This document shows, one piece after another, positions 50,847 to 63,755 of a stretch of 64,000 nucleotides of DNA. Both the position numbers and the translations under genes were made by a program. The notes below the pieces were generated by a model. The model ran no database searches. It saw only the letters and a program-made list of their open reading frames with translations, and was not told the DNA's origin. The stretch lies in the NCBI RefSeq assembly GCF_014236855.1, contig NZ_CP051261.1, forward strand, positions 4,092,001-4,156,000, read 5' to 3'. The stretch comes from Xanthomonas sp. SI (lineage in GTDB: Bacteria; Pseudomonadota; Gammaproteobacteria; Xanthomonadales; Xanthomonadaceae). The stretch's first letter is position 1, and every line of letters starts with the position of its first letter.

Positions 50847-51020
50847 GCCGGGATTGGGGATTGGGGATTGGGGATTCGTAAAAGCTGGATCCTGGCGCCT
50901 TGAAGCCACGCCAAACCGCGCAATCGCGCGGTTTCTCGTTCTGGCCGCAGGCCGGAAAGAGGCTGCGGCAGGCAAGCCGCTCTTGCCAATCCCGAATCCC
51001 GACTCCCCACTCCCGGCTTT
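50847..51020. repeat. Stop-adjacent G-rich inverted element with G-quadruplex motif
   Basis: From 50847 the sequence is GCCGGGATTGGGGATTGGGG and continues with ATTGGGGATT: four G-runs separated by ATT. The inverted right block (AATCCCGAATCCCGACTCCC, 50991-51010) ends CCCGGC at 51018. The element spans the gap to the sigma-54 activator gene. Confidence 0.82.
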
Positions 51021-51093
51021 TGCTGCACTGCGGTTTGAGCCAAGGCCCGGTTTGTGCGTCACTGCCGCTCTGGTCCCGGGTGGGGGCCCGAGG

Positions 51094-53088
51094 ATGCGCC
51101 ACGTGTCGGAGCTGACTGTCGCCAACCTCCTGCAGGCCACGGCTGGGCCGTCGTCCGCTGCCGAGGCGGAATCCGCGTTGCTGGCGCGGATGCGCCGTTT
51201 CCGCCAGATCGAACCGCTGCCGCCGGCGCTGGCGCGCTCGTGGCAGCGCTGCATGGACGAGCACGGGCTGAGTCCGGACGCCCCCCCTTCGCCGATGGTC
51301 CACGACGGCAACGGGCTGCGCGAGCGCCAGCAGCGGCTCGAGGAAGTGCTGCGCATCGCCAAGGTGGAGATGGAGAACCTCTACGAGCAGATCGCCGGCG
51401 GCGGCTACGCGGTGGTGTTCGCCGACGCCGAGGCGACCTTGCTGCACAGCGTGCAGGACCCGGCGCTGCTGCGCGAATTCCGCGAGACCGGGCTGTTCTG
51501 CGGTGCCAGCTGGGCCGAGCGCTACCAGGGCACCAACGGCATCGGCACCTGCGCGGTGGAGCGCAGCGCGCTCGGCGTGCACCGCGGCGAGCACTACCTG
51601 GTCCGGCATCTGCCGCTGTCGTGCAGCGGCGCGCCGATCCTCGACCCGCACGGACAATTGCTGGCGGTGCTGGATGCGTCCACGCCGGACGCGCGCGACA
51701 CCAAGCTGGTGCAGCGCCATACCAGTGCGCTGGTGCGCATGTCGGCGGCGCAGATCGCACGTTCGTATTTCCTGGAGCAGTACCGGCATGCGTGGATCCT
51801 GCGCTTCCACAGCCGCCCGGAGTTCGCCGGCCTGCTGCACGAGGCGCTGATGGCGATCGGCGCCGACGGCTGCGTGCTGGCCGTCAACGAGGCGGCGCTG
51901 GAACAGCTCGGCAAGGGCGACCGCAGCCTGCTGGTCGGGCGCGACATCTCGCAGGTGATGCAGCTGGACTTCGACACCGTGGAGCAGCGCGCGCGCAACG
52001 ACGCCAGCACGCTGTGGTCGATCCGCTGCGCCTGCCACGGACGGCGCTTCTTCGCCCTGGCGCAGCCGCCGCGCCGCGACGCGGCCGCCGGCCGCGCGCG
52101 CGCCGCCAGCGCCGACAGCGGCGAGGCGGCCTATTCCCGCGAACACGTCGGCTCCGATCCGCGCATGCGCCACAACCTGGACAACGCGTTGAAGCTGGCC
52201 GCGCATCGCGTGTCGATCCTGCTGTGCGGCGCCACCGGCACCGGCAAGGAAGAGTTCGCCAAGGCGGTGCACCGCGGCTCGCCGTGGGCGGCGCGATCGT
52301 TCGTGGCGGTGAACTGCGCGGCGATTCCCGAGGCGCTGATCGAGAGCGAACTGTTCGGCTACGCGCGCGGCGCGTTCACCGATGCGGCGCGCGAAGGCCG
52401 CCACGGCAAGCTGCTGCAGGCCAGCGGCGGCACCCTGTTCCTGGACGAGATCGGCGACATGCCGCTGCCGCTGCAGACGCGGCTGCTGCGCGTGCTGGAA
52501 GAACAGAGTGTGACCCCGCTGGGCAGCGACCGGGCGATGCCGCTGGAACTGCACGTGATCAGCGCCAGCCACCGCGACCTGATGCAGATGGTGGCCGCAG
52601 GCGAGTTCCGCGAGGACCTGTACTACCGCCTCAACGGCGTGGTGCTGCACCTGCCGCCGCTGCGCGAGCGCAGCGACAAGGCCGAACTGATCCGCACCCT
52701 GCTGCGCGAGGAGAGCGGCGAGCACCACGTGCGCATCAGCGAAGACGCGCTGCACAAGCTGCTCAGCTACGCCTGGCCGGGCAACCTGCGGCAACTGCGC
52801 AACGTGCTGCGCACCGCCGCGGTGCTGTGCGCAGACGGCATGATCCGCATCTCCAACCTGCCGCAGGAAATCGTCGACGCCGACAGCGGCCCGTGCCTGG
52901 TCAACGGCGATGCGGTCGCCGCCGACGACATGCCCGGCCGCGTAGCCTTGGACAGCGCCGAACGCAGCGTGCTGCAACAGCAGCTGGAACGGCATCGCTG
53001 GAACGTCAGCCGCACCGCCGACGCGCTCGGCATCAGCCGCAACACCCTGTACCGCAAGCTGCGCAAGCATGGGTTGGCGACGGCCTGA
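51094..53088 (+). CDS. AcoR-type sigma-54-dependent activator
   Basis: 664 residues. A GAF sensor domain lies at about 90-225 and a PAS-like segment at 245-325. The AAA+ domain (350-585) has Walker A GATGTGKE (379-386) and Walker B GGTLFLDEIGD. A Fis-type helix-turn-helix ends the protein (WNVSRTADALGISRNTLYRK). There is no receiver domain, so a small molecule probably signals through GAF, as in AcoR. The sigma-54 contact loop reads GAFTDA (426-431), where GAFTGA is usual. The gene lies beside the PQQ alcohol dehydrogenase operon, whose promoter is of sigma-54 type, and is its likely regulator. Confidence 0.88.
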   Translation: MRHVSELTVANLLQATAGPSSAAEAESALLARMRRFRQIEPLPPALARSWQRCMDEHGLSPDAPPSPMVHDGNGLRERQQRLEEVLRIAKVEMENLYEQIAGGGYAVVFADAEATLLHSVQDPALLREFRETGLFCGASWAERYQGTNGIGTCAVERSALGVHRGEHYLVRHLPLSCSGAPILDPHGQLLAVLDASTPDARDTKLVQRHTSALVRMSAAQIARSYFLEQYRHAWILRFHSRPEFAGLLHEALMAIGADGCVLAVNEAALEQLGKGDRSLLVGRDISQVMQLDFDTVEQRARNDASTLWSIRCACHGRRFFALAQPPRRDAAAGRARAASADSGEAAYSREHVGSDPRMRHNLDNALKLAAHRVSILLCGATGTGKEEFAKAVHRGSPWAARSFVAVNCAAIPEALIESELFGYARGAFTDAAREGRHGKLLQASGGTLFLDEIGDMPLPLQTRLLRVLEEQSVTPLGSDRAMPLELHVISASHRDLMQMVAAGEFREDLYYRLNGVVLHLPPLRERSDKAELIRTLLREESGEHHVRISEDALHKLLSYAWPGNLRQLRNVLRTAAVLCADGMIRISNLPQEIVDADSGPCLVNGDAVAADDMPGRVALDSAERSVLQQQLERHRWNVSRTADALGISRNTLYRKLRKHGLATA

Positions 53089-53133
53089 GCGCGGAGGCGA
53101 AGCTGTTCGGTCACGCCATCTTCTGCATCCCAT

Positions 53134-53735
53134 CTCCTGTAGGAGCGGCTTCAGCCGCGACCCCAAAGCCGGATACAGATCGGCTTCGGGGTCGCGGCTG
53201 AAGCCGCTCCTACAAACAACCATCGCGTGATGCAGCGATGCCGCTGTTTTGGTAGGAGATTCAGTCCCGACTGCTACCGAGGCCTGCAAATTCCCGGCTC
53301 CGGTGTCGCGACTGAAGTCGCTCCCACAAAGAAGCAGTCGTCTGCTACGGCGATGCTCATCGGCGCTGCTTTTTTAGGAGCAACTTAAGTTCCGAGTGCT
53401 GTCGAAGCCGGATGCCTTCCGGCCTCAGTGTCGCGGCTGAAGCCGCTCCTACAAACAACCGGTATCCGCGCCGCTGTTGTGCGAGCAGCTTCAGCCCCGA
53501 CTGCTGTCGAAGCCTGAAAATTTCCGGCTCCGGTGTCGCGACTGAAGTCGCTCCCTCGACAAGCCTTGGCACGATGCGACATTGCATGAGCGCAGGTCCA
53601 CTCTCGTGTTCAACGCAACGATCATGTCGATGGCGATCTGCACGGCTTTTGTGGGAGGGACTTCAGTCCCGACTCTTCCCGAAGTCGGCCATCTTCCGGC
53701 TTCGGGGTCGCGGCTGAAGCCGCTCCTACAAAAAG
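53134..53735. repeat. REP array: five head-to-head pairs
   Basis: Pairs lie at 53138-53215, 53250-53330, 53370-53456, 53475-53560 and 53650-53732. Stem types differ: GCGGC/GCCGC, GCGAC/GTCGC, GGGAC/GTCCC, and a decayed CAACT/AAGTT copy at 53375. Between the arms of most pairs is a second inverted segment (GAAGCCGGA / TCCGGCTTC type). The array separates the activator gene from the stop of the TonB receptor gene and may insulate them transcriptionally. No gene is supported here. Confidence 0.88.
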
Positions 53736-53794
53736 CAGGCACCCTGGTGTCCGCGGCTCTGCGCTGCGCCGCACTGCACAGTTCACCGGCCAGC

Positions 53795-56191
53795 CTAGAA
53801 CCGCCAGCGCAAACCGACCTGGTATTGCCGCGGCGCGCCGGGGGCGACGAAGCGGGAGGGGCCGTCTTCGACCGCGGCGTCCTGCGGGCGCGCCAGCGCG
53901 CCGTCCGGAAACAGGTCTTCGGCGACCGCCGCATAGGTCTCGTAGCGGCGATCGAACAGGTTGTTGACGCGCAGGTACAGCGACAGGCCGTCGGCGATCT
54001 GCCAGGTGCCGTGCACGTCGATCAAGGCGTAGCCGCCGGTGGACAGGTCGTGGCGCACCGCGTCTTCGCCGTCCTCGGGATCCTCGACCAGGCCGTCCTC
54101 GTTGCCGCTGGCCACGCGCCGCGAGATCGCGCGCAGGTCCGCACCCAGCGCCAGCTGCGCCAGGGCCTGCCACTCCAGGCCCAGCTTCAGCGTGTTGCGC
54201 GGCAGGCCGGCGATGCGCATGCCCGGATGCAGCTCGATGGTGCGCTCGCCGGACAGCAGTTCGCCGTCGCTGCGGTAGGTCGCGTCCAGGTAGCTGTAGG
54301 CGGCGAACCAGCGCAGCGCGCCGCTGCTGGCGCGCCAGCTCAGATCCGCGCCCTGGTAGCGGGTGCGATCGACGTTGTCGAAGTAGCCCAGCTGGGTGTT
54401 CGGCGCACGCAGGAACAGGATGTCGTTGCGGTTGTCGGCGCGGTACAGCGAGGCGTTGAAGGCCTGATCCGGCGACGGGTTCCAACGCGCGCCGACTTCG
54501 TAGGTGCGCGAGACGATCTGCTCCAGGCGCGGGTCGGCCTGCAGCCCGGTCGGCAGCCGGCACGGCTGTTCCGGGTCGGCGCAGCCCAGTTCGATCGCAG
54601 TCGGCGCGCGGCTGTTCTGCGAGGCCGAGGCGAAGGCGGTGAAGCCGCCGCCCAGGCGCTGGGTGATGCCCAGCGACGGATTGGCCTTGGCGAACACGAA
54701 GCGCTCGCGCGGCAATGCGCCGTCCTCGGCGGTGGACAGCACGTTGCTGACCTCGACCCGGTTCCAACGCAGCGCGCCGGTCACGTGGGTGGCCTCGCTC
54801 ACTTCCCAGGTGTCGGCGGCGAACACGCCCAGCGTGCTGCTGCGGCCGCTGACCCCGGAAAAGAACTCGCGCTCCTCGTCGGGATCGGCGACGACGGCGC
54901 GGTCGTCCTCCACGAAGCCCTCCTGTGCGTACTGCCGGTAGCGCACCCGGTTGCGGTCGTAGGTGGCGCCGAGGCTGAGCGCATGCGCGCCGGCCTGGCG
55001 GCTGAAGTTCAGCGCCACGCCCTCGGCATGCTGGCGCATCTGCGTGGTGTTGAGCACGCCGCTGTGCAAGGCGTCGGCATCGGCGCGCGACACGGTGCAA
55101 TCGTCGTCCAGCGGCGTGCCGTCGGCGGCGTAGCCGTCGGCGCAGTCCTCGACGAATTCCTCGTAGTCCTCGTTGATGTCGCCGTTGACGGTGTCGCGGC
55201 GGCCGTCGCGGTAGTAGGCCAGCAGGTGCAGCGACGTATCCGCATCGAAGCGGTGGTCCACTTGCGCGGTCAGCAAGGTGTTGCGGTTGCGGGTCATGTC
55301 CGGCGAGGTATAGACCGCGTCGCGGTCGGCCTCGTACAGGCCGGACTCGATGCCGTCGTCGGTGTAGCGGCTGCCGGGCAGCAGGCCGTTGCCGATCAGG
55401 CGGCTGCGCCCATGCAGCAGCGACACGTCCCAGTCGGTGCTGTCGCCTTGCTTGCCCACTTTGCCGAACACGGTACCGAGGCGGCCTTCGGAGGCATCGC
55501 GCCAGCCGTCCTCGTCGAAGCCGGTGACCGCGACGAAGGCGTGCAGGCCATCGCGGCCGGCGTAGCCGTAGGAGGCATCCAGGCGCTTGCGCGCGCCGCT
55601 GCCGAACGACAGATCCGCGCGCAGGCCCGGCGCGGTCAGGCCGGATTGGGTGGTGAACGCCAGCGCGCCGCCGAGCGTGTTCGGCCCGAACAGCGGGTTG
55701 GAGCCGGGCATCAGCGCGACGCTGCGGATCGCCGCCTCCGGCATCATGTCCCAGCTGACGATGTCGGCGAACGGCTCGTTCATGCGCACCCCGTCCAAGT
55801 ACACCGACACGCCCTGCGAGGCACCCGGCAACGCCGAAGCGCGGAAGCCGCGGAAGGTGAGATCGGTCTGGAACGGGCTGCCCTGCACCTCGTTGGTGTC
55901 CACGCCGTTCATCTGCCGCAGCATGAAATCGGTGAGGTTGCCGGCCTGGCTGCGCGCGATGTCGTCGGCGTTGGCGGTCTGCACCGTGTACGGCAGGTGG
56001 TCGGCATCGATCAGGGTGCCGGGAATCGGCGTGGCGGTGACCTCGACCCGGTCCAGCGCGGTGATCTGCGCATCGCCGGCATTGACCGTGGTCTGCGCGG
56101 CGGCCGGCGCGGCGGCCAGGGCCATGACGATGGCGGCGGCCAGTCCGTGCGCGTGCGCCTGCCCGATACCGCGTCCTTTGCTGCTAACCAT
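53795..56191 (-). CDS. TonB-dependent outer-membrane receptor of the PQQ operon
   Basis: 798 residues. The signal peptide (GLAAAIVMALAAAPAAA) is followed by a TonB box (LDRVEVTA, 47-54), a plug (65-185, with LPYTVQTANADDIAR and GSNPLFGPNTLGGALAF) and a 22-strand barrel ending in GLRWRF. Two predicted extracellular loops are very acidic: 338-373 with Cys350 and Cys365 bracketing eight or so acidic residues, and 427-441. The gene lies 15 bases after the class III dehydrogenase gene, last of six. Homologues near quinoprotein genes suggest import of PQQ itself (as E. coli YncD/PqqU does) or of a metal chelate such as a lanthanophore; sequence alone does not decide. Confidence 0.85.
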   Translation of the reverse strand: MVSSKGRGIGQAHAHGLAAAIVMALAAAPAAAQTTVNAGDAQITALDRVEVTATPIPGTLIDADHLPYTVQTANADDIARSQAGNLTDFMLRQMNGVDTNEVQGSPFQTDLTFRGFRASALPGASQGVSVYLDGVRMNEPFADIVSWDMMPEAAIRSVALMPGSNPLFGPNTLGGALAFTTQSGLTAPGLRADLSFGSGARKRLDASYGYAGRDGLHAFVAVTGFDEDGWRDASEGRLGTVFGKVGKQGDSTDWDVSLLHGRSRLIGNGLLPGSRYTDDGIESGLYEADRDAVYTSPDMTRNRNTLLTAQVDHRFDADTSLHLLAYYRDGRRDTVNGDINEDYEEFVEDCADGYAADGTPLDDDCTVSRADADALHSGVLNTTQMRQHAEGVALNFSRQAGAHALSLGATYDRNRVRYRQYAQEGFVEDDRAVVADPDEEREFFSGVSGRSSTLGVFAADTWEVSEATHVTGALRWNRVEVSNVLSTAEDGALPRERFVFAKANPSLGITQRLGGGFTAFASASQNSRAPTAIELGCADPEQPCRLPTGLQADPRLEQIVSRTYEVGARWNPSPDQAFNASLYRADNRNDILFLRAPNTQLGYFDNVDRTRYQGADLSWRASSGALRWFAAYSYLDATYRSDGELLSGERTIELHPGMRIAGLPRNTLKLGLEWQALAQLALGADLRAISRRVASGNEDGLVEDPEDGEDAVRHDLSTGGYALIDVHGTWQIADGLSLYLRVNNLFDRRYETYAAVAEDLFPDGALARPQDAAVEDGPSRFVAPGAPRQYQVGLRWRF

Positions 56192-56206
56192 GCATGCTCC
56201 TTGATG

Positions 56207-57316
56207 TCAGTACAGTACGACCGATTTGATGCCCCTGCCCTCGCGGATCGCATCGAAGGCGCGGTTGATGTCCTGCAGCGGCAGCGTCTCGCTGATGAGT
56301 TCGTCGATGCGGATCTCGCCGGCCAGGTAGCGCTCGGCATAGGCCGGCAGTTCGCTGCGGCCCTTGACCCCGCCGAACGCGCTGCCGCGCCAGGCGCGGC
56401 CGGTGACCAGTTGCAGCGGCCGCGTGCTGATCTCCTGCGCGCTCGGCGCCACGCCCAGGATGATGCTTTCGCCCCAGCCCTTATGGCAACACTCCAGTGC
56501 CGCGCGCATCGCGCGCACGTCGCCGACGCACTCGAAACTGTGGTCGGCGCCGCCGTCGGTGAGATCGACGATCACCTGCTGCACCGGCGCGCCGAAGTCC
56601 TTCGGATCCAGGCAGTCGGTGGCGCCCAACGCGCGCGCCAGATCGAACTTGTCGCGGTTGATGTCGACCACGATGATGCGCCCGGCGCGCGCCATCACCG
56701 CGCCCTGCACCACCGACAGGCCGATGCCGCCGAGTCCGAACACCGCCACGCTGTCGCCGGGCCGCACCCGCGCGGTGTTGAGTACCGCGCCGATGCCGGT
56801 GGTGATGGTGCAGCCGAGCAGGCACACCTTGTCCAACGGCGCGGAGGGATGGATCTTGGCCACCGCGATCTCCGGCAGCACGGTGTACTCGGCGAAGGTG
56901 CTGGTGCCCATGTAGTGCAGGATCGGCCGCCCGCGCAGCGAGAAGCGGCTGCTGCCGTCGGGCATCAGCCCGCGGTCCTGGCTGGCGCGGATCGCCTGGC
57001 ACAGGTTGGTGCGCCCGGAGCGGCAGAACTTGCACACGCCGCATTCGGGCATGTACAGCGGGATCACATGATCGCCGGGGCGCACGCTGGTGACGCCGAT
57101 GCCGACCTCCTCGACCACGCCGGCGCCTTCCTGGCCCAGGATCACCGGGAACGCGGCGTCCGGATCGGCACCGGACAGGGTGCTGGCGTCGCTGTGGCAC
57201 ACGCCGCTGGCGACCAGGCGCACCAGCACCTCGCCGGCCTTGGGCGGTTGCAGGTCCACTTCCTCGATGGCCAGCGGTTGGTTCGCCGCCCAGGCGACCG
57301 CGGCTCGCGTCTTCAT
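56207..57316 (-). CDS. Class III alcohol dehydrogenase / S-(hydroxymethyl)glutathione dehydrogenase-like
   Basis: 369 residues; GGGGAGAGGGG precedes the start at 57316. Class III marks: [50 protein letters not shown] (glutathione-binding region), [13 protein letters not shown]. The structural zinc cysteines 92, 95, 98 and 106 are present, as are catalytic-zinc Cys40 and Cys169. The third catalytic ligand, normally His in LGHEGAG, is Gln62 (codon CAG). It would oxidise formaldehyde-glutathione formed by the PQQ enzyme, unless the Gln alters metal binding or specificity. Fifth gene of the operon, 46 bases after the propeller gene. Confidence 0.88.
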
Positions 57317-57362
57317 TCCCCTCTCCCCGCATCCTCTCGCTGTGCCGCATGCGCTCCTCGCC

Positions 57363-58394
57363 TCACTGCGCGATGACCACACCCCAGGGCATGTCGCCCA
57401 CTGCGATCTGCTTGATCTCTTTCATGGTGGCGGTGTCGATGACGCTCACGCTGTTGGAGCGGCCGTTGGCCACGTACAGCTTCTTGCCGTCGGCGCTGAG
57501 CGCCGGATTCCACGGGCGCTGCCCGACCGGGATCTCGGCCAGGCTGGCGCGCGCGGCCGGGTCGATCACGCTGACCGTGCCGGCGCCGCCGTTGGAGGCG
57601 TAGACGCGGCTGCCGTCGCGCGAAATGGCGATGCCGGCGGTGCGCTGCCCGGCCGGAATGCTGGCCACGCGCCGGCGCGCGACCAGGTCGATCACATCGA
57701 CCACGCTGGCCGCTTCCTGCGCCACGTACACGGTGTTGCCGTCGGGGGCGAACGCCATGCCGCGCGGATGGCCGCTGGTGGCGATGACGCCGGTGGATTT
57801 GCCCGCCTTCAGGTCGATCACGTCCAGATCGTTGGAACCTTCGTTGCTGGTCAGCAGCAGCGTGCCGTCGGGGCTGTACACGCAGTGCTCCGGCGCCTGG
57901 CCCTGAGTGGCGATGCGCGCGCCGATCGCGAAGCTGGCCGGATCGATCAGCATCACCTGGTTCTGCCCTTCCACGCACACCGCGAACTGGCGGCCGTCCG
58001 GCGATGCGGCGATGCCCTCGGCGTTCTCGCCGATGTCCACGCTGCGCAGCACCCGATCCTGCACCGTATCCAGTTCCAGCAGCCGGTGGCCTTGCGCATC
58101 GATCACGTACAGATGCCCGGACGGTCCGGGCAGGAGCTGCTGCAGGCGCTTGCCGAGCTGGCCCTGCGCGGACAGCGTGCGCAGCACCGCGTCGGTGCCG
58201 GTGTCGATCACCGAGATGGTGCCGGCACGTTGGTTGGGCACGTAGGCCAGCGCCGCTGCCGGCGTGGCGGACGGCTTGGCATCCGCGCTCGCATCCGCCG
58301 CACCGGCAGGCGCCGCCGCGCGCTGGCAGGCCGCACCGGCCAGCAGCAGCGCCAGCGCAGCGGTGCCCAGCGTGCGGCGTGCGCCTGGGGTCAT
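57363..58394 (-). CDS. PQQ-catabolism-associated YVTN beta-propeller protein
   Basis: 343 residues. An exported N-terminus ([16 protein letters not shown]) contains a possible but atypical lipobox. About seven propeller blades follow, each with the pattern ...YVxN...xxxVSVIDTxxxxVxxxIxVG (for example [20 protein letters not shown] and [19 protein letters not shown]). This matches the YVTN-repeat family found beside quinoprotein dehydrogenases (PQQ-dependent catabolism-associated propeller). Function unknown; a scaffold or electron-transfer accessory is possible. Its ATG overlaps the cytochrome stop (ATGA). Confidence 0.85.
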
Positions 58395-58951
58395 GGAGCC
58401 GCGCCCGCGGTCTTGTTGATCGAGTGGATGAAGGCCAGCAGCTTCTCGGTGTCGCCGTCCTTGAGCACCGGCGCGAACGGCGGCATCTGCCCGACCACCT
58501 TCTCGTGGCCGACGCGGACCTTGCCGTGCGCGGTCATGCCGGCGGTGCCTTCGCTGATCAGCGTGCGCAGCGTGTCGTCGTCGTGGCCGTAGACCCAGAT
58601 GTCGTTGGTCAGCGGCGGGCACATGCCGCCACCGCCGGTGCCGCCGTGGCAGGCGCTGCAGCCGGCGGACAGGAAGATCTTCTTGCCTTCGGCGGCGAGC
58701 TCCGGCGTCACCTTCACCGGCGGGCCTTTCGGAATCGGGGTGACCGCGGCCGGCGGCGGGGTCGCGGCGGCCGGCGCAGCGACCGGGGCGGCGCTGGGCG
58801 CAGGTGCGGCAGCAGGTGCCGCCGACGGGGCGGCAGCGGGGGCGGAAGGCGGTGCATCCTTGCCGCAGGCGGCCAGGGCCAGGGTCAACGCGAACAGGGA
58901 CAGGTGCAGCAGCTTCGGGACGACGGAACGGCGGACGACGGCATTGCGCAT
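58391..58951 (-). CDS. Lipoprotein c-type cytochrome (XoxG-like role)
   Basis: 186 residues. The lipobox LALAAC puts the lipidated cysteine at 29; an Ala/Pro linker runs to about 75. A single class I haem domain has CSACH near 97-101 with the distal Met probably in GQMPPF near 155. GGTGGGGMCPPLTNDIWVYG and DTLRTLISEGTAGMTAHG are typical of cytochromes that take electrons from quinoprotein alcohol dehydrogenases. It would pass electrons from PQQH2 to the oxidase chain. It is separated from the binding-protein gene by 77 bases and coupled to the propeller gene. Confidence 0.88.
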   Translation of the reverse strand: MRNAVVRRSVVPKLLHLSLFALTLALAACGKDAPPSAPAAAPSAAPAAAPAPSAAPVAAPAAATPPPAAVTPIPKGPPVKVTPELAAEGKKIFLSAGCSACHGGTGGGGMCPPLTNDIWVYGHDDDTLRTLISEGTAGMTAHGKVRVGHEKVVGQMPPFAPVLKDGDTEKLLAFIHSINKTAGAAP

Positions 58952-59028
58952 GGGAAAAGAACCTTTGCGGGACGGACTGTGGGGACGTGAATGCCGCGGC
59001 TGCGGCGCGAGCAGGTAAGGCGTGGCGG

Positions 59029-60789
59029 TCATTGCGTGCGTCGGTGTTCGGCCTCCGTGAGCAGTTGCGCCAGCGACGCATCGCCGCGCTGTTGCGCCAG
59101 CGCCGCCGGCGTCTTGCCGTCGGCGTCGCGGGTGGCCGCGTTGGCGCCGGCGGCGAGCAGGCGGCGACTGGCGTCCGCGCGGCCGGCGGCGGCGGCCAGC
59201 ATCAGCGGGGTCACGCCGGCGCGGTTGGGCCGGTCGGCCTCGGCACCGCGCGCCAGCAAGGCGTCCAGCATCTGCGGATCGTTGCGCGCCACCGCGAACA
59301 TCACCGGAGTGAAGCCGGCCGGATTGCTGCGGCGCACGTTGGCGCCGGCGCCGAGCAGCGCCTGCACCAGCTCGATATCGGCATAGGAGATCGCCAGATC
59401 CAGCGCGGTCCAGCCGTCCTTGGACACCGCATCGACCTTGGCCCGGCGCGCAAGCAGCAGCTTGGCGCTCTGCGCGTCGTTGCCCCAGGCCGCCTTCATC
59501 AATGGCGTCCAGCCGCTGCTGCCGTCGCGGCTTTCCACGTTGGCGCCGGCCGCCAGCAACTCGCCGACCAGGGTCGGCGCCTGGTTGCGGATCGCCTGGT
59601 GCAGCGGCGGCTCGCCCAGCAGGTTGGGTCGGTCGGCGCTGGCCCCGTGGCGCAGCAGCCAGGCCACGCGCACGCCATCGCCGGCGTCCAGCGCATGCGC
59701 CAGTTCCTGGTTGGGGTCGGCACCGCCGGCGATGCGCAGCTGCAGTTGCGCCAGCATCTCCGAAGAGGCCTGCGCACTCGGCGTCGTGGTGTCGTCGGCC
59801 GGCGTGTCGTAGCTGCCGTGCGAGCGCAAATCGCCGTTGACGATGCAGTCGGCACAGGCCACCAACGGCACGTGGTATTCGCGCAGGATCGCGTCGATCT
59901 TGCCGGCACTGCGCTGCATCGCCGCGTTCAGCGCATCGCGCAGGTCGGCGTTCTTGCGCGACACCGCCCACGCCATCGAATACTCCAGCACTTCGTCGTC
60001 GATGACGTTCAACGGCACCACGCCCAGGCCGCCGCGCGCGGCGTAATAGCCGGCGACCGGGCCCCAGGACTCGGCGGCGTCGAGCTGCCCGCCGGCGACG
60101 CGTTCGGCCAGCTTGCCCGGGTGGTCCTGCGGCGAGGTCGCCGAGTCGTAGAACAGGTATTGCACATCGCCGGACACGCCGTGGTCGAACAGCGCCTGCC
60201 GCGCCGGCGAACTCTGGAACACGCCGATCTTGAGTTTCTTCAGCGCCGGATCGTCCAACGAGGCCGGCTGCAACGCCAGGCCCTTGCGGGTCACCAGCAC
60301 ATAGGTGGAGCGGTACAGCGGCTGCGTGGGCAAGCCCATCTCGAAATCGCTGTTCATGTCCATCAGCACGTCGCAACGCCCGGCGTTGATCGTGCTGCGC
60401 GCCAACCCACGTTGATAGTAGGTGCGCCATTCGTATTCCAGGCGCCGGCCCATCGCCTCGGCGAGGACCTGCGCGATCTTGTTCTGGAAGCCTTCGCCGG
60501 CGCGATTGGACAACGGCATGTTGCCCGGATCGGCGCAGACCCGCAGCACCGCCGCATCGGCGGCGAGCGCGGGGGCGGGCACGGTGCCCGCCGCTGGTTT
60601 GGTGGCCGCGCTAGAGGCGGCCTCAGGAACGCGAGCCGTCGCGGACGACGGCTCGCGCGTGCAACCTGCGGCGACGAGTCCGAGGCTGCAAAGCAACACC
60701 ACGGCGCGCGCGCCCCGATACAAGCGCCGCGGGGCGACCGCCTCCCCCGGGCGGTCGCTCGCGACATGGACGCGTCGCCGCCGGCTCAT
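59029..60789 (-). CDS. Quinoprotein-associated substrate-binding protein fused to ankyrin repeats
   Basis: 586 residues, predicted lipoprotein (GLVAAGC, Cys43). Residues 80-310 are a periplasmic binding protein of the quinoprotein-dehydrogenase-associated class (TIGR03871; XoxJ belongs here): LRVCADPGNMPLSNRAGEGF, YYQRGLARSTINAGRCDVLM, QDHPGKLAERVAGGQLDAA. Residues 345-580 are about seven ankyrin repeats (SGWTPLMKAAWGNDAQSAKL, AGFTPVMFAVARNDPQMLDA and similar). XoxJ is thought to help activate or load the dehydrogenase; the ankyrins would add a docking surface in the periplasm. Its ATG overlaps the stop of the dehydrogenase gene (ATGA), so production is coupled. Confidence 0.87.
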   Translation of the reverse strand: MSRRRRVHVASDRPGEAVAPRRLYRGARAVVLLCSLGLVAAGCTREPSSATARVPEAASSAATKPAAGTVPAPALAADAAVLRVCADPGNMPLSNRAGEGFQNKIAQVLAEAMGRRLEYEWRTYYQRGLARSTINAGRCDVLMDMNSDFEMGLPTQPLYRSTYVLVTRKGLALQPASLDDPALKKLKIGVFQSSPARQALFDHGVSGDVQYLFYDSATSPQDHPGKLAERVAGGQLDAAESWGPVAGYYAARGGLGVVPLNVIDDEVLEYSMAWAVSRKNADLRDALNAAMQRSAGKIDAILREYHVPLVACADCIVNGDLRSHGSYDTPADDTTTPSAQASSEMLAQLQLRIAGGADPNQELAHALDAGDGVRVAWLLRHGASADRPNLLGEPPLHQAIRNQAPTLVGELLAAGANVESRDGSSGWTPLMKAAWGNDAQSAKLLLARRAKVDAVSKDGWTALDLAISYADIELVQALLGAGANVRRSNPAGFTPVMFAVARNDPQMLDALLARGAEADRPNRAGVTPLMLAAAAGRADASRRLLAAGANAATRDADGKTPAALAQQRGDASLAQLLTEAEHRRTQ

Positions 60790-62792
60790 CGCGCGGTCTT
60801 GGCCGCGGCGGCCGGTGCGCCACCCGCCGCAGCGGTGGCGCTGGCGGTGACGGTCTTGCCGGCGCCGTCGATGCGGAAGGTATGCACCATGCCGCCCAAC
60901 GGGATCTTGTCGAAGCCGTTGCTGAAGGCCAGACCCGCCGCACCCAGCGCGCCGTACGGATCGCCCGGATCCAGACCGCCGGCGACCGGCAGGCCGATCC
61001 AGCCGCCGATGCCGGAGAACACCGCCACGTACTGGTGGCCGTTGGCCTTGTAGGCGATCGGGTTGCCGATGATGCCGGACGGCAGCTTCATCTCCCACAG
61101 CTTCTTGCCGGTGTCCTTGTCCACCGCGCGGAACCAACCGTCGAGCGTGCCGTAGAACACCAGCCCGCCGTCGGTGACCAGGGTGCCGCTCCACACCGGG
61201 AACTTCTCCTTGATCTCCCACTTGGACTTGCCTTCGACCACGTCGAACGCCTTGACGATGCCCAGCGCGCCAGGCTCGTTCGGCTTCATCATCACATTGG
61301 CGAACACGTACGGCAGGCCCATCATGGTGTTGCCGCGTTCCTGCGGTTCCAGTTCCATGTGCCAGTTGTTGGTGCCGCAGAAGAACACCGCCGAATTGGC
61401 CGGATCCACCGAGCACGGCTGCTGGTCCTTGCCGCCCATCGCCGACGGGAACGCCTCGACCTTCTTGCCGCGCTCCAGCGGCGAATGCGCGGCGACCTTG
61501 ATCGGGCGGCCGGTCTTCATGTCGATGCTCTCGGCCCAGTTGGCCGGCACGAACTTGTGCGCGCGCAGCAGGGTGCCGTCGCGGCGGTCGAGCACGTAGG
61601 CGAAGCCGTTGCGGTCGAACTGCACCACGGACGGCACCTGCTTGCCGTCGATGGTCAGGTCGACCAGGATCGGCTCGTTGATGCCGTCGTAGTCCCACTG
61701 GTCGAACGGCGTCTTCTGGTAGCCCCACACCGCTTCGCCGGTCTCGATCTTGCGCGCGAACAGGGTCATCGACCACTTGTTGTCGTATTCGCCGGTATCG
61801 CATTCCTTCTGCGTGGTCTTGCCGCAGCGGTACGACGGGCTCCACAGGCCGGGGTTGCCGGTGCCGTAGTAGAGGAGTTTCAGCTTCGGGTCGTAGCTGT
61901 ACCAGCCCCACGCCGCGCCGCCACCGCGCTTCCAGCCTTCCTCCGGGAACGTCTTCACGCCCAGGTCGCCGAGCTGGCCGTGCTGCGGATTGGCTTTGTT
62001 GAAATCCGGACCCAGGCAGATGTCCTTGTCGGTGCCGGTCGCTTCGCACGACCAGGCCTGCTTGCCGTCGCCCAGCGCATACGCGGCGACGCGGCCGCGC
62101 ACGCCGAATTCGTTGCCGCTGATGCCGGCGATGACCTTGCCGTCGGCGATGATCGGCGCCATGGTGATGGTCTCGCCCTTTTCAGGATAGGCGAGCTTCT
62201 GCTTCCACACTTCCTTGCCGGTCTTGGCATCGAGCGCGATCACATCGCCGCTGAGGCTACCGAACACCAGCTTGCCGTCGGCATAGGACGCACCGCGGTT
62301 GACCGTGTCGCAGCACGCTACCGCCACCGAGCGCTCGTCCTGCTGCGGGGTGTATTTCCACAGCACCTTGCCGCCGTCGTCCTGCGCCGCCAGGTCGATC
62401 GCGAACACGTTGTTCGGATACGCGCTGACCATGTACATGATGCTGCCGATCACCAGCGGCTGACCTTCGTGGCCGCGGGTGGCGTCGGTCTTCATCTCCC
62501 ACGACATCTTCAGGTTCTTGACGTTGTCGCGGTTGATCTCGGCCAGCGGGCTGTGCCGGTTCAGGCCGAAGTCGCGCCCGATGCCGCCCCAGTTGTCGGG
62601 ATTGGCAGCATTGGTGGCGAACTCGCTATCGGTATCGGCCACCGCGGCCGGCGCGGCAGCGGCCGGTTGCTGCGCAGCGGCAGGCGCGGCCGGCGCCGCG
62701 GTTTCTTCCTGCTTCTTGCAACCCGCCAGCACCAGCGCGGTTGCCAGCGCGAGCAGCGTCCAGGCACGGGTACGACATGGATGACTGTGCAT
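60786..62792 (-). CDS. Lipid-anchored PQQ alcohol dehydrogenase with lanthanide-type active site
   Basis: 668 residues; GAGGGGAG precedes the start at 62792. Lipobox LVLAGC (Cys25), then an Ala-rich linker to 52. The eight-bladed PQQ propeller has vicinal Cys160-Cys161, W-motif blades (GKEVWKQKL, GKKLWEMKL) and metal/catalytic residues Glu228 (GNEFGVRG), Asn313 (GTGNPGLW), Asp367 and Asp369 (WDYDG). Asp two after the catalytic Asp is the mark of lanthanide-dependent XoxF/ExaF enzymes; calcium enzymes have Ala, Ser or Thr there. It oxidises primary alcohols (methanol or ethanol) in the periplasm. First gene of the six-gene operon behind a sigma-54 promoter. Confidence 0.92.
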   Translation of the reverse strand: MHSHPCRTRAWTLLALATALVLAGCKKQEETAAPAAPAAAQQPAAAAPAAVADTDSEFATNAANPDNWGGIGRDFGLNRHSPLAEINRDNVKNLKMSWEMKTDATRGHEGQPLVIGSIMYMVSAYPNNVFAIDLAAQDDGGKVLWKYTPQQDERSVAVACCDTVNRGASYADGKLVFGSLSGDVIALDAKTGKEVWKQKLAYPEKGETITMAPIIADGKVIAGISGNEFGVRGRVAAYALGDGKQAWSCEATGTDKDICLGPDFNKANPQHGQLGDLGVKTFPEEGWKRGGGAAWGWYSYDPKLKLLYYGTGNPGLWSPSYRCGKTTQKECDTGEYDNKWSMTLFARKIETGEAVWGYQKTPFDQWDYDGINEPILVDLTIDGKQVPSVVQFDRNGFAYVLDRRDGTLLRAHKFVPANWAESIDMKTGRPIKVAAHSPLERGKKVEAFPSAMGGKDQQPCSVDPANSAVFFCGTNNWHMELEPQERGNTMMGLPYVFANVMMKPNEPGALGIVKAFDVVEGKSKWEIKEKFPVWSGTLVTDGGLVFYGTLDGWFRAVDKDTGKKLWEMKLPSGIIGNPIAYKANGHQYVAVFSGIGGWIGLPVAGGLDPGDPYGALGAAGLAFSNGFDKIPLGGMVHTFRIDGAGKTVTASATAAAGGAPAAAAKTAR

Positions 62793-62875: not shown

Positions 62876-62891
62876 AGCAATCAACGTGCCA
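62876..62891 (-). promoter_or_regulatory. Sigma-54 (-24/-12) promoter of the PQQ operon
   Basis: On the minus strand the sequence reads TGGCACGTTGATTGCT, an exact match to the consensus TGGCACG-N4-TTGCW. Transcription would begin about 12 bases beyond the GC, near 62865, giving a leader of about 70 bases before the dehydrogenase ATG. Confidence 0.88.
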
Positions 62892-62975: not shown

Positions 62976-63027
62976 TGTATCGGAAACGGCACACTTTGCG
63001 CCACCGGCTTGTATCGCGATTGGCGCA
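62976..63027. promoter_or_regulatory. Tandem 18-bp candidate enhancer sites
   Basis: TGTATCGGAAACGGCACA (62976-62993) and TGTATCGCGATTGGCGCA (63010-63027) match at 13 of 18 positions and are 34 bases apart, about three helical turns. They lie 85 and 119 bases upstream of the -24 element, the usual distance for an activator of the sigma-54 class. The first has an imperfect dyad (TGT..CG / CG..ACA). Confidence 0.6.
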
Positions 63028-63684: not shown

Positions 63685-63755
63685 TGTAGGAGCGGCTTCA
63701 GCCGCGACACTTTCTGACAGAGCCAGTCGCGGCTGAAGCCGCTCCTACAAAAGCA
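63685..63755. repeat. Head-to-head REP pair
   Basis: TGTAGGAGCGGCTTCAGCCG starts at 63686 and the inverted partner ends with CTCCTACA near 63751. Both arms have intact stems. Confidence 0.85.

Follow-up and report, generated by a model that had tools for sequence, protein, structure and literature searches.

A XoxF1-clade dehydrogenase operon of Xanthomonas sp. SI with predicted lipoprotein signals and a predicted sigma-54 promoter

With what machinery, and where in the cell, a Xanthomonas bacterium would oxidize plant methanol is the question raised by a six-gene locus of Xanthomonas sp. SI. The genome is a single contig of 5.25 Mb (NZ_CP051261.1), of which we analyzed a 64 kb stretch (positions 4,092,001 to 4,156,000; hereafter the window, whose numbering is used for all coordinates). 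We consider it probable that the locus is a XoxF1-clade operon with a predicted sigma-54 promoter, in which four lipoprotein-like proteins on the periplasmic face of a membrane would convert methanol to formaldehyde for onward oxidation. Judged from the sequence, Xanthomonas bacteria likely oxidize plant methanol at a membrane surface, not with free enzymes, and this membrane is likely the outer one. The locus was compared with 55 fetched xoxF loci (L numbers), 29 of which are of Xanthomonas type, and with 297 genomes of the family (G numbers). The closest record to the window XoxF among the fetched loci was that of Xanthomonas bonasiae FX4 (97%).

The six genes run on the minus strand from 62792 to 53795 and encode, in this order, a pyrroloquinoline quinone (PQQ) dehydrogenase of the XoxF type, a XoxJ-type binding protein fused to an ankyrin domain, a cytochrome c, a YVTN propeller, a class III alcohol dehydrogenase, and a TonB receptor. 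The initial annotation had placed six co-directional genes here, and family models agree with its gene identities (dehydrogenase, binding protein, cytochrome, propeller, glutathione-formaldehyde dehydrogenase, and TonB receptor). Two of the three ATGA junctions that it described, XoxF/XoxJ and cytochrome/propeller, are sure, while the third, between XoxJ and the cytochrome, exists only with a cytochrome start at 59032 and is otherwise, with the likelier start at 58951, a gap of 77 bases. The remaining gaps measure 46 bases (propeller to class III dehydrogenase) and 15 bases (class III dehydrogenase to TonB receptor). A promoter and terminator scan, with counts near those of shuffles, gave one weak sigma-70-like site within the class III gene and, anywhere in the operon, nothing resembling a terminator on the minus strand. 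The six genes may be read as a single transcript. All six were found in order at 24 of the 55 loci, all of them within the 29 of Xanthomonas type and including one with an interrupted xoxF frame (L034); three of the other five Xanthomonas-type loci end at a contig edge, one has no XoxJ, and one (X. vasicola) has lost most of the operon. This order exceeds chance, and it answers the search of other genomes for gene order that the initial annotation had proposed as a check. Additionally, we found three features beyond that annotation, namely lipoprotein signals, a sigma-54 promoter match, and an AcoR-like regulator.

The dehydrogenase (60786..62792, minus strand, 668 aa) scored 596 bits against TIGR03075, the model of PQQ methanol/ethanol dehydrogenases (cut-off 480). 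Among solved structures, it matched 7o6z (XoxF1) with 891.6 bits, 4mae (XoxF2) with 623 bits, and all others with at most 515.5 bits. The Glu and Asn ligands and the extra Asp two residues past the catalytic Asp are present at exactly the positions named in the initial annotation (Glu228, Asn313, Asp367, and Asp369) and align with those of the XoxF1 and XoxF2 of solved structure. All four residues are kept in the 31 Lysobacteraceae-type and the 20 other XoxF1 loci aligned (54 of the 55 loci entered the alignment, X. vasicola L063 being too short). In a tree of 34 rows (33 of the 54 aligned loci and the window), 31 rows stood on a 100/100 branch separate from three relatives of 38-46%, and the Lysobacteraceae-type proteins formed a supported group (99/99) beside Methylacidimicrobium-relative and Hyphomicrobiaceae proteins. 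These results support a lanthanide-type enzyme, as the initial annotation had it, but the clade is a known one, and the available text of PMC9258066 already places XoxF1 in Xanthomonadaceae.

One mark speaks against the clade assignment. The Asp preceding the metal Glu, which the 7o6z paper gives as diagnostic of XoxF1 in the part available (PMC8546591), is Asn227 in the window protein. Asn also occupies this position in 31 of 31 Lysobacteraceae-type loci and in Methyloceanibacter L047 and L048, and Asp in the other 18 of the 20 XoxF1 loci. Because of this change, we describe the dehydrogenase as XoxF1 by descent with a changed signature. The tree holds no XoxF2-5 reference rows, and the clade name therefore also rests on the bit scores and on Methyloceanibacter, listed for xoxF1 in the accessible part of PMC9258066. 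In the stretch examined, the two Methyloceanibacter loci showed nothing that matched XoxJ, the cytochrome, or the propeller.

The second gene (59029..60789, minus strand, 586 aa) encodes the XoxJ-ankyrin protein, which scored 255.8 bits against TIGR03871 (cut-off 212) and also matches ankyrin families. Its AlphaFold model (34 sequences; mean pLDDT 81.7, pTM 0.54) shows a XoxJ domain and about seven ankyrin-type helix pairs with a floppy linker, and Foldseek returned MxaJ 5sv6, XoxJ 6onp (TMt 0.90), the MxaF/MxaJ complex 9ism, and many ankyrins. The window protein thus has the binding-protein domain of XoxJ and MxaJ (6onp, 9ism), encoded likewise next to the dehydrogenase gene, but differs from them in the modelled ankyrin domain, in a CxxC between the domains, and in a lipoprotein-like signal. 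This CxxC (residues 312-315) is invariant in 34 fused proteins aligned, and is missing from two unfused XoxJ proteins and also from the fused proteins of L041, L050, and L051.

The fusion stands in one frame in 27 of the 29 Xanthomonas-type loci. We rejected the idea that it is peculiar to the window because 14 of the 20 other XoxF1 loci also carry it in one frame (two have both parts with an interrupted frame, and four have neither nearby). Two 45% relatives (L058 and L059) have an unfused XoxJ, with 245 residues between the match and the stop, and among the 120 listed of 730 homologues of the entire protein at E 1e-40, all have ankyrin except a partial record (P0065). The initial annotation had called the combination unfamiliar, with two extra fused or altered members; the ankyrin fusion is not a peculiarity, as XoxF1 loci of Verrucomicrobia and Proteobacteria share it. 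In one paper that mentions both xoxF and ankyrin, the ankyrins are those of other organisms, and the word is rare in the XoxJ/MxaJ literature among the matches listed. The core of the operon is therefore not new, given that Xanthomonadaceae XoxF1 is in print (PMC9258066, in the text available) and that XoxJ-ankyrin recurs in other XoxF1 loci. The third and fourth genes encode a cytochrome c in the XoxG position (58391..58951, alternative start 59032, minus strand, 186 aa, PF00034 and PF13442) with one CSACH motif, and a YVTN beta-propeller (57363..58394, minus strand, 343 aa) with TIGR02276 repeats, which scored 175 bits against TIGR03866, the PQQ-dependent catabolism beta-propeller model, below the cut-off of 287.

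The dehydrogenase, XoxJ-ankyrin, cytochrome, and propeller all carry lipoprotein-like signals, and because of this a joint location on the periplasmic face is predicted. The signals are LAGC with Cys25 and Lys at +2 in XoxF (Ala/Pro tether at residues 26-52), AAGC with Cys43 in XoxJ-ankyrin, LAAC with Cys29 in the cytochrome (long Ala/Pro tether), and GAAC with Cys23 in the propeller (Ala/Pro-rich tether). All four pass a PROSITE-like lipobox rule, the looser of two rules applied, and two of them, XoxF and the cytochrome, also pass the strict consensus. The tethers after the Cys consist of 51-68% Ala+Pro, compared with 16-22% in the part beyond. Counted over 150 residues with the looser charge rule, in loci holding the gene, the signals occur in XoxF (28/29), XoxJ-ankyrin (27/27), cytochrome (26/27), and propeller (25/25) of the Xanthomonas-type loci, with exceptions at L030, whose reading frame ahead of the xoxF match is different, and at L023, which has a deletion. 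A narrower first count, with a shorter stretch and a stricter charge rule, had given 17 of 27 cytochromes and 27 of 29 XoxF proteins. The other XoxF1 loci gave 1/19, 0/16, 0/16, and 1/16 for the same four proteins, respectively, and at sequence level the four-protein signals are distinctive of Xanthomonas compared with the other XoxF1 loci examined. In E. coli, the residue at +2 after the lipobox Cys sorts lipoproteins, and a residue other than Asp points to the outer membrane. The residue after the Cys in the Xanthomonas-type loci is Lys, Thr/Ile, Gly/Ser, or Gln/Arg/Glu and never Asp, and by that rule the outer membrane is indicated.

Expression of the operon may depend on sigma-54, whose -24/-12 consensus is GG-N10-GC. 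A predicted promoter of this type, TGGCACG-N4-TTGCT (TGGCACGTTGATTGCT), lies at 62876..62891 on the minus strand with 12 of 12 consensus letters, its first base 99 nt upstream of the xoxF ATG, and only two matches of at least 11 letters exist on both strands of the 64 kb window. Matches of at least 10 of 12 letters with intact GG and GC were found in all 28 loci of the 55-locus set above 85% identity (27 of them with at least 11), and likewise in all 27 such loci of the family genomes; the promoter rows of L049 and L061 are artefacts, the sequence upstream of these two loci being too short. The match is also present at the X. vasicola remnant (L063). A dyad farther upstream (GGCGCAAAGTGTGCC, 62988..63002, minus strand), conserved upstream of xoxF, is a candidate activator binding site. 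Its pattern GGCRCARASTGTGCC recurs with at least 13 of 15 letters in the same 28/28 and 27/27 loci at -169 to -272, a description and not a test because the motif was drawn from these loci.

Convergent to the operon lies a gene for a sigma-54 activator (50854..53088, plus strand, likely start near 51094) with PF00158 and a Fis-type helix-turn-helix, which we take to be AcoR-like. The window thereby holds both marks of a sigma-54-dependent operon, a -24/-12 element and an activator gene. The activator occurs in 28 of 29 family genomes with xoxF and in 2 of 268 others, there partial or broken, and its distance from xoxF in the 28 genomes tabulated is 9-11 kb in 22 and 20 kb in one, with the gene on another contig in five. 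The two genomes with partial or broken copies and no xoxF match (G250 and G092, a 330-contig draft) look as if the gene were decaying after operon loss. Among beta- and gamma-proteobacterial loci grouped in the tree (L045, L046, L051, and L052), the promoter match is 10 or 11, and L045 and L051 have an AcoR-like gene after the cytochrome gene. Directly ahead of xoxF, the Methylacidimicrobium-group loci L038, L039, and L054 carry a gene resembling sigma-54 activators (37-39%) but no -24/-12 match. The Lysobacter, Pseudoxanthomonas, and Coralloluteibacterium loci have neither a promoter match nor an AcoR-like gene in the stretch examined, though G018, whose xoxF has nearly the same contig coordinates as that of L055, has such a gene at 57% on another contig. 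The pairing of activator and operon is weakened by its presence within the examined stretch in only 20 of the 29 Xanthomonas-type loci, three of the nine others (L011, L021, and L025) having a full 10 kb flank.

The likely fate of the substrate follows from the fifth gene (56207..57316, minus strand), which encodes an S-(hydroxymethyl)glutathione dehydrogenase / class III alcohol dehydrogenase of 369 aa (TIGR02818, 641 bits, cut-off 544). A second class III dehydrogenase of the genome, 66% identical, lies less than 1 kb from the gene for S-formylglutathione hydrolase (FghA, 424.9 bits, cut-off 281.7). As this hydrolase and the clustered pqqB, pqqC, and pqqE sit elsewhere in the genome, the operon is not self-contained, contrary to the initial annotation. 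We infer that methanol is the substrate of the window XoxF, and it could be oxidized as far as formate, with electrons going to the respiratory chain and to NADH. The genome gives no indication of full methylotrophy, as neither Fae nor RuBisCO was found (the serine and ribulose monophosphate cycles were not searched), and the formate dehydrogenase model TIGR01591 gave three genome matches, all under the cut-off (the single-subunit type was not searched). One of these matches (C1:809411; 505.7 bits, cut-off 666, with 501.3 of 1000 bits for NasA) is likelier a nitrate reductase than a formate dehydrogenase because a NarK transporter and a CysG-type methyltransferase adjoin it, and another (C1:2033090) is an FdhF/YdeP-family oxidoreductase (957.6 bits, own cut-off 582). 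From these negative results, dissimilation seems likelier than full methylotrophy.

These absences, the class III dehydrogenase encoded in the operon, and the resemblance of the regulator to AcoR, the acetoin regulator, would also fit a true substrate other than methanol, be it a different alcohol or else formaldehyde or some other aldehyde, with the operon serving mainly in detoxification. The Nd-holding 7o6z enzyme oxidizes formaldehyde (Km 1.6 µM) about as well as methanol (Km 1.4 µM), according to the available part of PMC8546591. We nevertheless regard this explanation as unlikely, if worth keeping in view, because the closest solved relatives are methanol dehydrogenases, and because the portion of PMC9258066 at hand counts Xanthomonadaceae among the 13C-methanol-labelled taxa in plant samples and cites their xoxF1 as methylotrophic potential.

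The last gene (53795..56191, minus strand) encodes a TonB-dependent receptor of 798 aa (PF00593 and PF07715). Its ligand is less clear from the models, as it scored 76.6 bits against the PqqU model NF041535 (cut-off 1200), had no PDB sequence match at E 0.001, and otherwise matched only general siderophore/TonB models, all below cut-off. With some sources labelling relatives as 'involved in Fe transport', it might be a receptor for iron or sugar with no more than a positional link to the operon. This seems improbable, because the gene begins 15 bases past the class III dehydrogenase gene and is present in 28 of the 29 xoxF genomes but in only 1 of the 268 others of the family. The genome-wide counts cover xoxF (at least 70% identity in 29 of 297 genomes, two matches of 45-47% being set aside), the receptor, and the activator, and they come mostly from two genera without correction for phylogeny.

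The tethering itself could be questioned, in that the locus may encode an ordinary soluble XoxF1 methanol oxidation system in which the lipobox-like Cys is unlipidated or the anchoring functionless. The XoxJ (AAGC) and propeller (GAAC) signals of the window pass the looser rule only, and the position of Cys43 in XoxJ means either that its signal is long or that translation begins later; the propeller signal meets the strict consensus in 20 of 25 relatives of the 55-locus set. In Lysobacter and Pseudoxanthomonas, XoxF fails even the looser rule (PAAC, 0/2), next to 2/2 for XoxJ, 2/2 for the cytochrome, and 1/2 for the propeller, and Coralloluteibacterium gave 0/1 for each of the four, with plain signal peptides on XoxF, XoxJ, and cytochrome and a propeller that shows LAAC but no fitting Met start. 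According to the available text of PMC8546591, ultracentrifugation left the Methylacidimicrobium XoxF1 in the supernatant, from which it was purified. Against a soluble system stand the Cys signal on four separate proteins at nearly all Xanthomonas-type loci and almost no other XoxF1 loci examined, and the Ala/Pro-rich tethers of the window proteins. Moreover, the X. campestris 8004 'methanol dehydrogenase' XC_0679 was independently predicted as a lipoprotein by DOLOP, with the signal MHQSSCRSARGGVLLMLALSAVLAGCKKDT, and its transcript rose 5.4-fold in a lolB mutant; the accessible part of that paper does not remark on it as a lanthanide enzyme (PMC8739992). We therefore consider the soluble system quite unlikely and prefer the tethered operon. 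The outer rather than the inner membrane is the softer part of the prediction, as the same available text states that it is not known which residues sort lipoproteins in X. campestris (PMC8739992). In addition, the main text of a lolA proteome paper contains neither 'methanol' nor 'PQQ' (PMC6341742), and in one paper that mentions XoxF and lipoprotein, the passage concerns a different protein.

Several losses were observed among relatives. X. vasicola L063 keeps only an N-terminal xoxF piece and the end of the receptor gene, the xoxF frame of X. euvesicatoria L034 is interrupted, and X. arboricola pv. juglandis L023 has no XoxJ-ankyrin. The X. vasicola loss, together with 4 of 18 listed same-genus genomes without xoxF, gave rise to the idea that operon loss is tied to grass pathogens or pectin-poor hosts. 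This idea was dropped because records of X. translucens pv. poae and pv. graminis have a 96% identical XoxJ-ankyrin, and because the family genomes could not be assigned to hosts. An unused, decaying relic, as these losses and the 4 of 18 genomes might suggest, is very improbable, given full-length or nearly full-length xoxF without stops at about 90-98% protein identity in 27 genomes including that of the window, the conserved promoter match and signals, and the transcription of XC_0679 in the available account (PMC8739992). As far as tested by gene order and by the co-occurrence of xoxF, receptor, and activator, the genes did not vary independently; independent variation is what the initial annotation had named as counting against it. 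Outside the Xanthomonas-type loci, a Paraburkholderia metagenome-assembled genome (L052, XoxF 59%) shares the order of the first five genes, from XoxF through to the class III dehydrogenase. Both flanks of the operon (about 53100-53760 and 63690-63750 of the window) hold a palindromic interspersed repeat, GTAGGAGCGGCTTCAGCCGCGAC, and variants. The exact sequence is present 441 times genome-wide (215 forward and 226 reverse), the reversed control not once.

Among known systems, the XoxF1 of Methylacidimicrobium thermophilum AP8 (7o6z) is the best solved relative, with identical metal ligands and Gly at its position 259 (PMC8546591, in the text available). The window XoxF is about 60% identical to the fetched Methylacidimicrobium loci, of which L038-L040 likewise have XoxJ-ankyrin and cytochrome after xoxF. 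It differs from 7o6z by Asn and Ala at the positions of Asp172 and Cys240, and the window adds a XoxF lipoprotein signal and tether and, downstream, the class III dehydrogenase and TonB receptor. The ped cluster of Pseudomonas putida likewise combines quinoprotein dehydrogenases with the XoxJ-like PedG and the PQQ-associated propeller PedA2, but P. putida is reported to have no LutH homologue, and control is by PedS2/PedR2 with no adjacent sigma-54 activator, according to the accessible part of PMC12997753. The XoxF3 clusters of Acidobacteria, Verrucomicrobia, and Gemmatimonadetes have XoxJ, XoxG, a YncE-type propeller, and a TonB receptor near xoxF, as here, but belong to another clade, and the available text of PMC10875860 does not mention a class III dehydrogenase or a sigma-54 element. 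What appears new here is the predicted lipid tethering, the likely sigma-54 control, and an operon with its own formaldehyde dehydrogenase and receptor.

Taken together, the tethered operon could work as follows. The TonB receptor would import a lanthanide chelate or PQQ, and the XoxJ domain, in line with the role as loader of the apo-enzyme proposed for XoxJ/MxaJ (PMC12997753, in the part available), would keep apo-XoxF open for the insertion of PQQ and metal, with the ankyrin tail perhaps serving as a docking arm. XoxF would hand its electrons to the tethered cytochrome. The formaldehyde would enter the cytoplasm and, once bound to glutathione, be oxidized by the class III dehydrogenase of the operon, after which FghA, encoded elsewhere, would give formate. 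The AcoR-like activator beyond the operon would sense an alcohol or aldehyde and fire the promoter. A bolder version, which we put forward only tentatively, is an outer-membrane 'methanol respirasome', in which the lipid-tethered dehydrogenase, ankyrin-armed loader, cytochrome, and propeller sit at the inner leaflet, the receptor feeds lanthanide or PQQ to the loader, and the sigma-54 activator acts as a plant-alcohol switch.

The locus raises three questions, which concern the route by which electrons would leave a tethered XoxF, the function of the ankyrin tail on XoxJ proteins of the XoxF1 clade, and the possibility that sigma-54 controls a XoxF. If the proposed system holds true, much of this plant-associated genus, many crop pathogens included, would gain energy from plant methanol with the help of rare earths, and membrane-tethered machinery would replace soluble enzymes.

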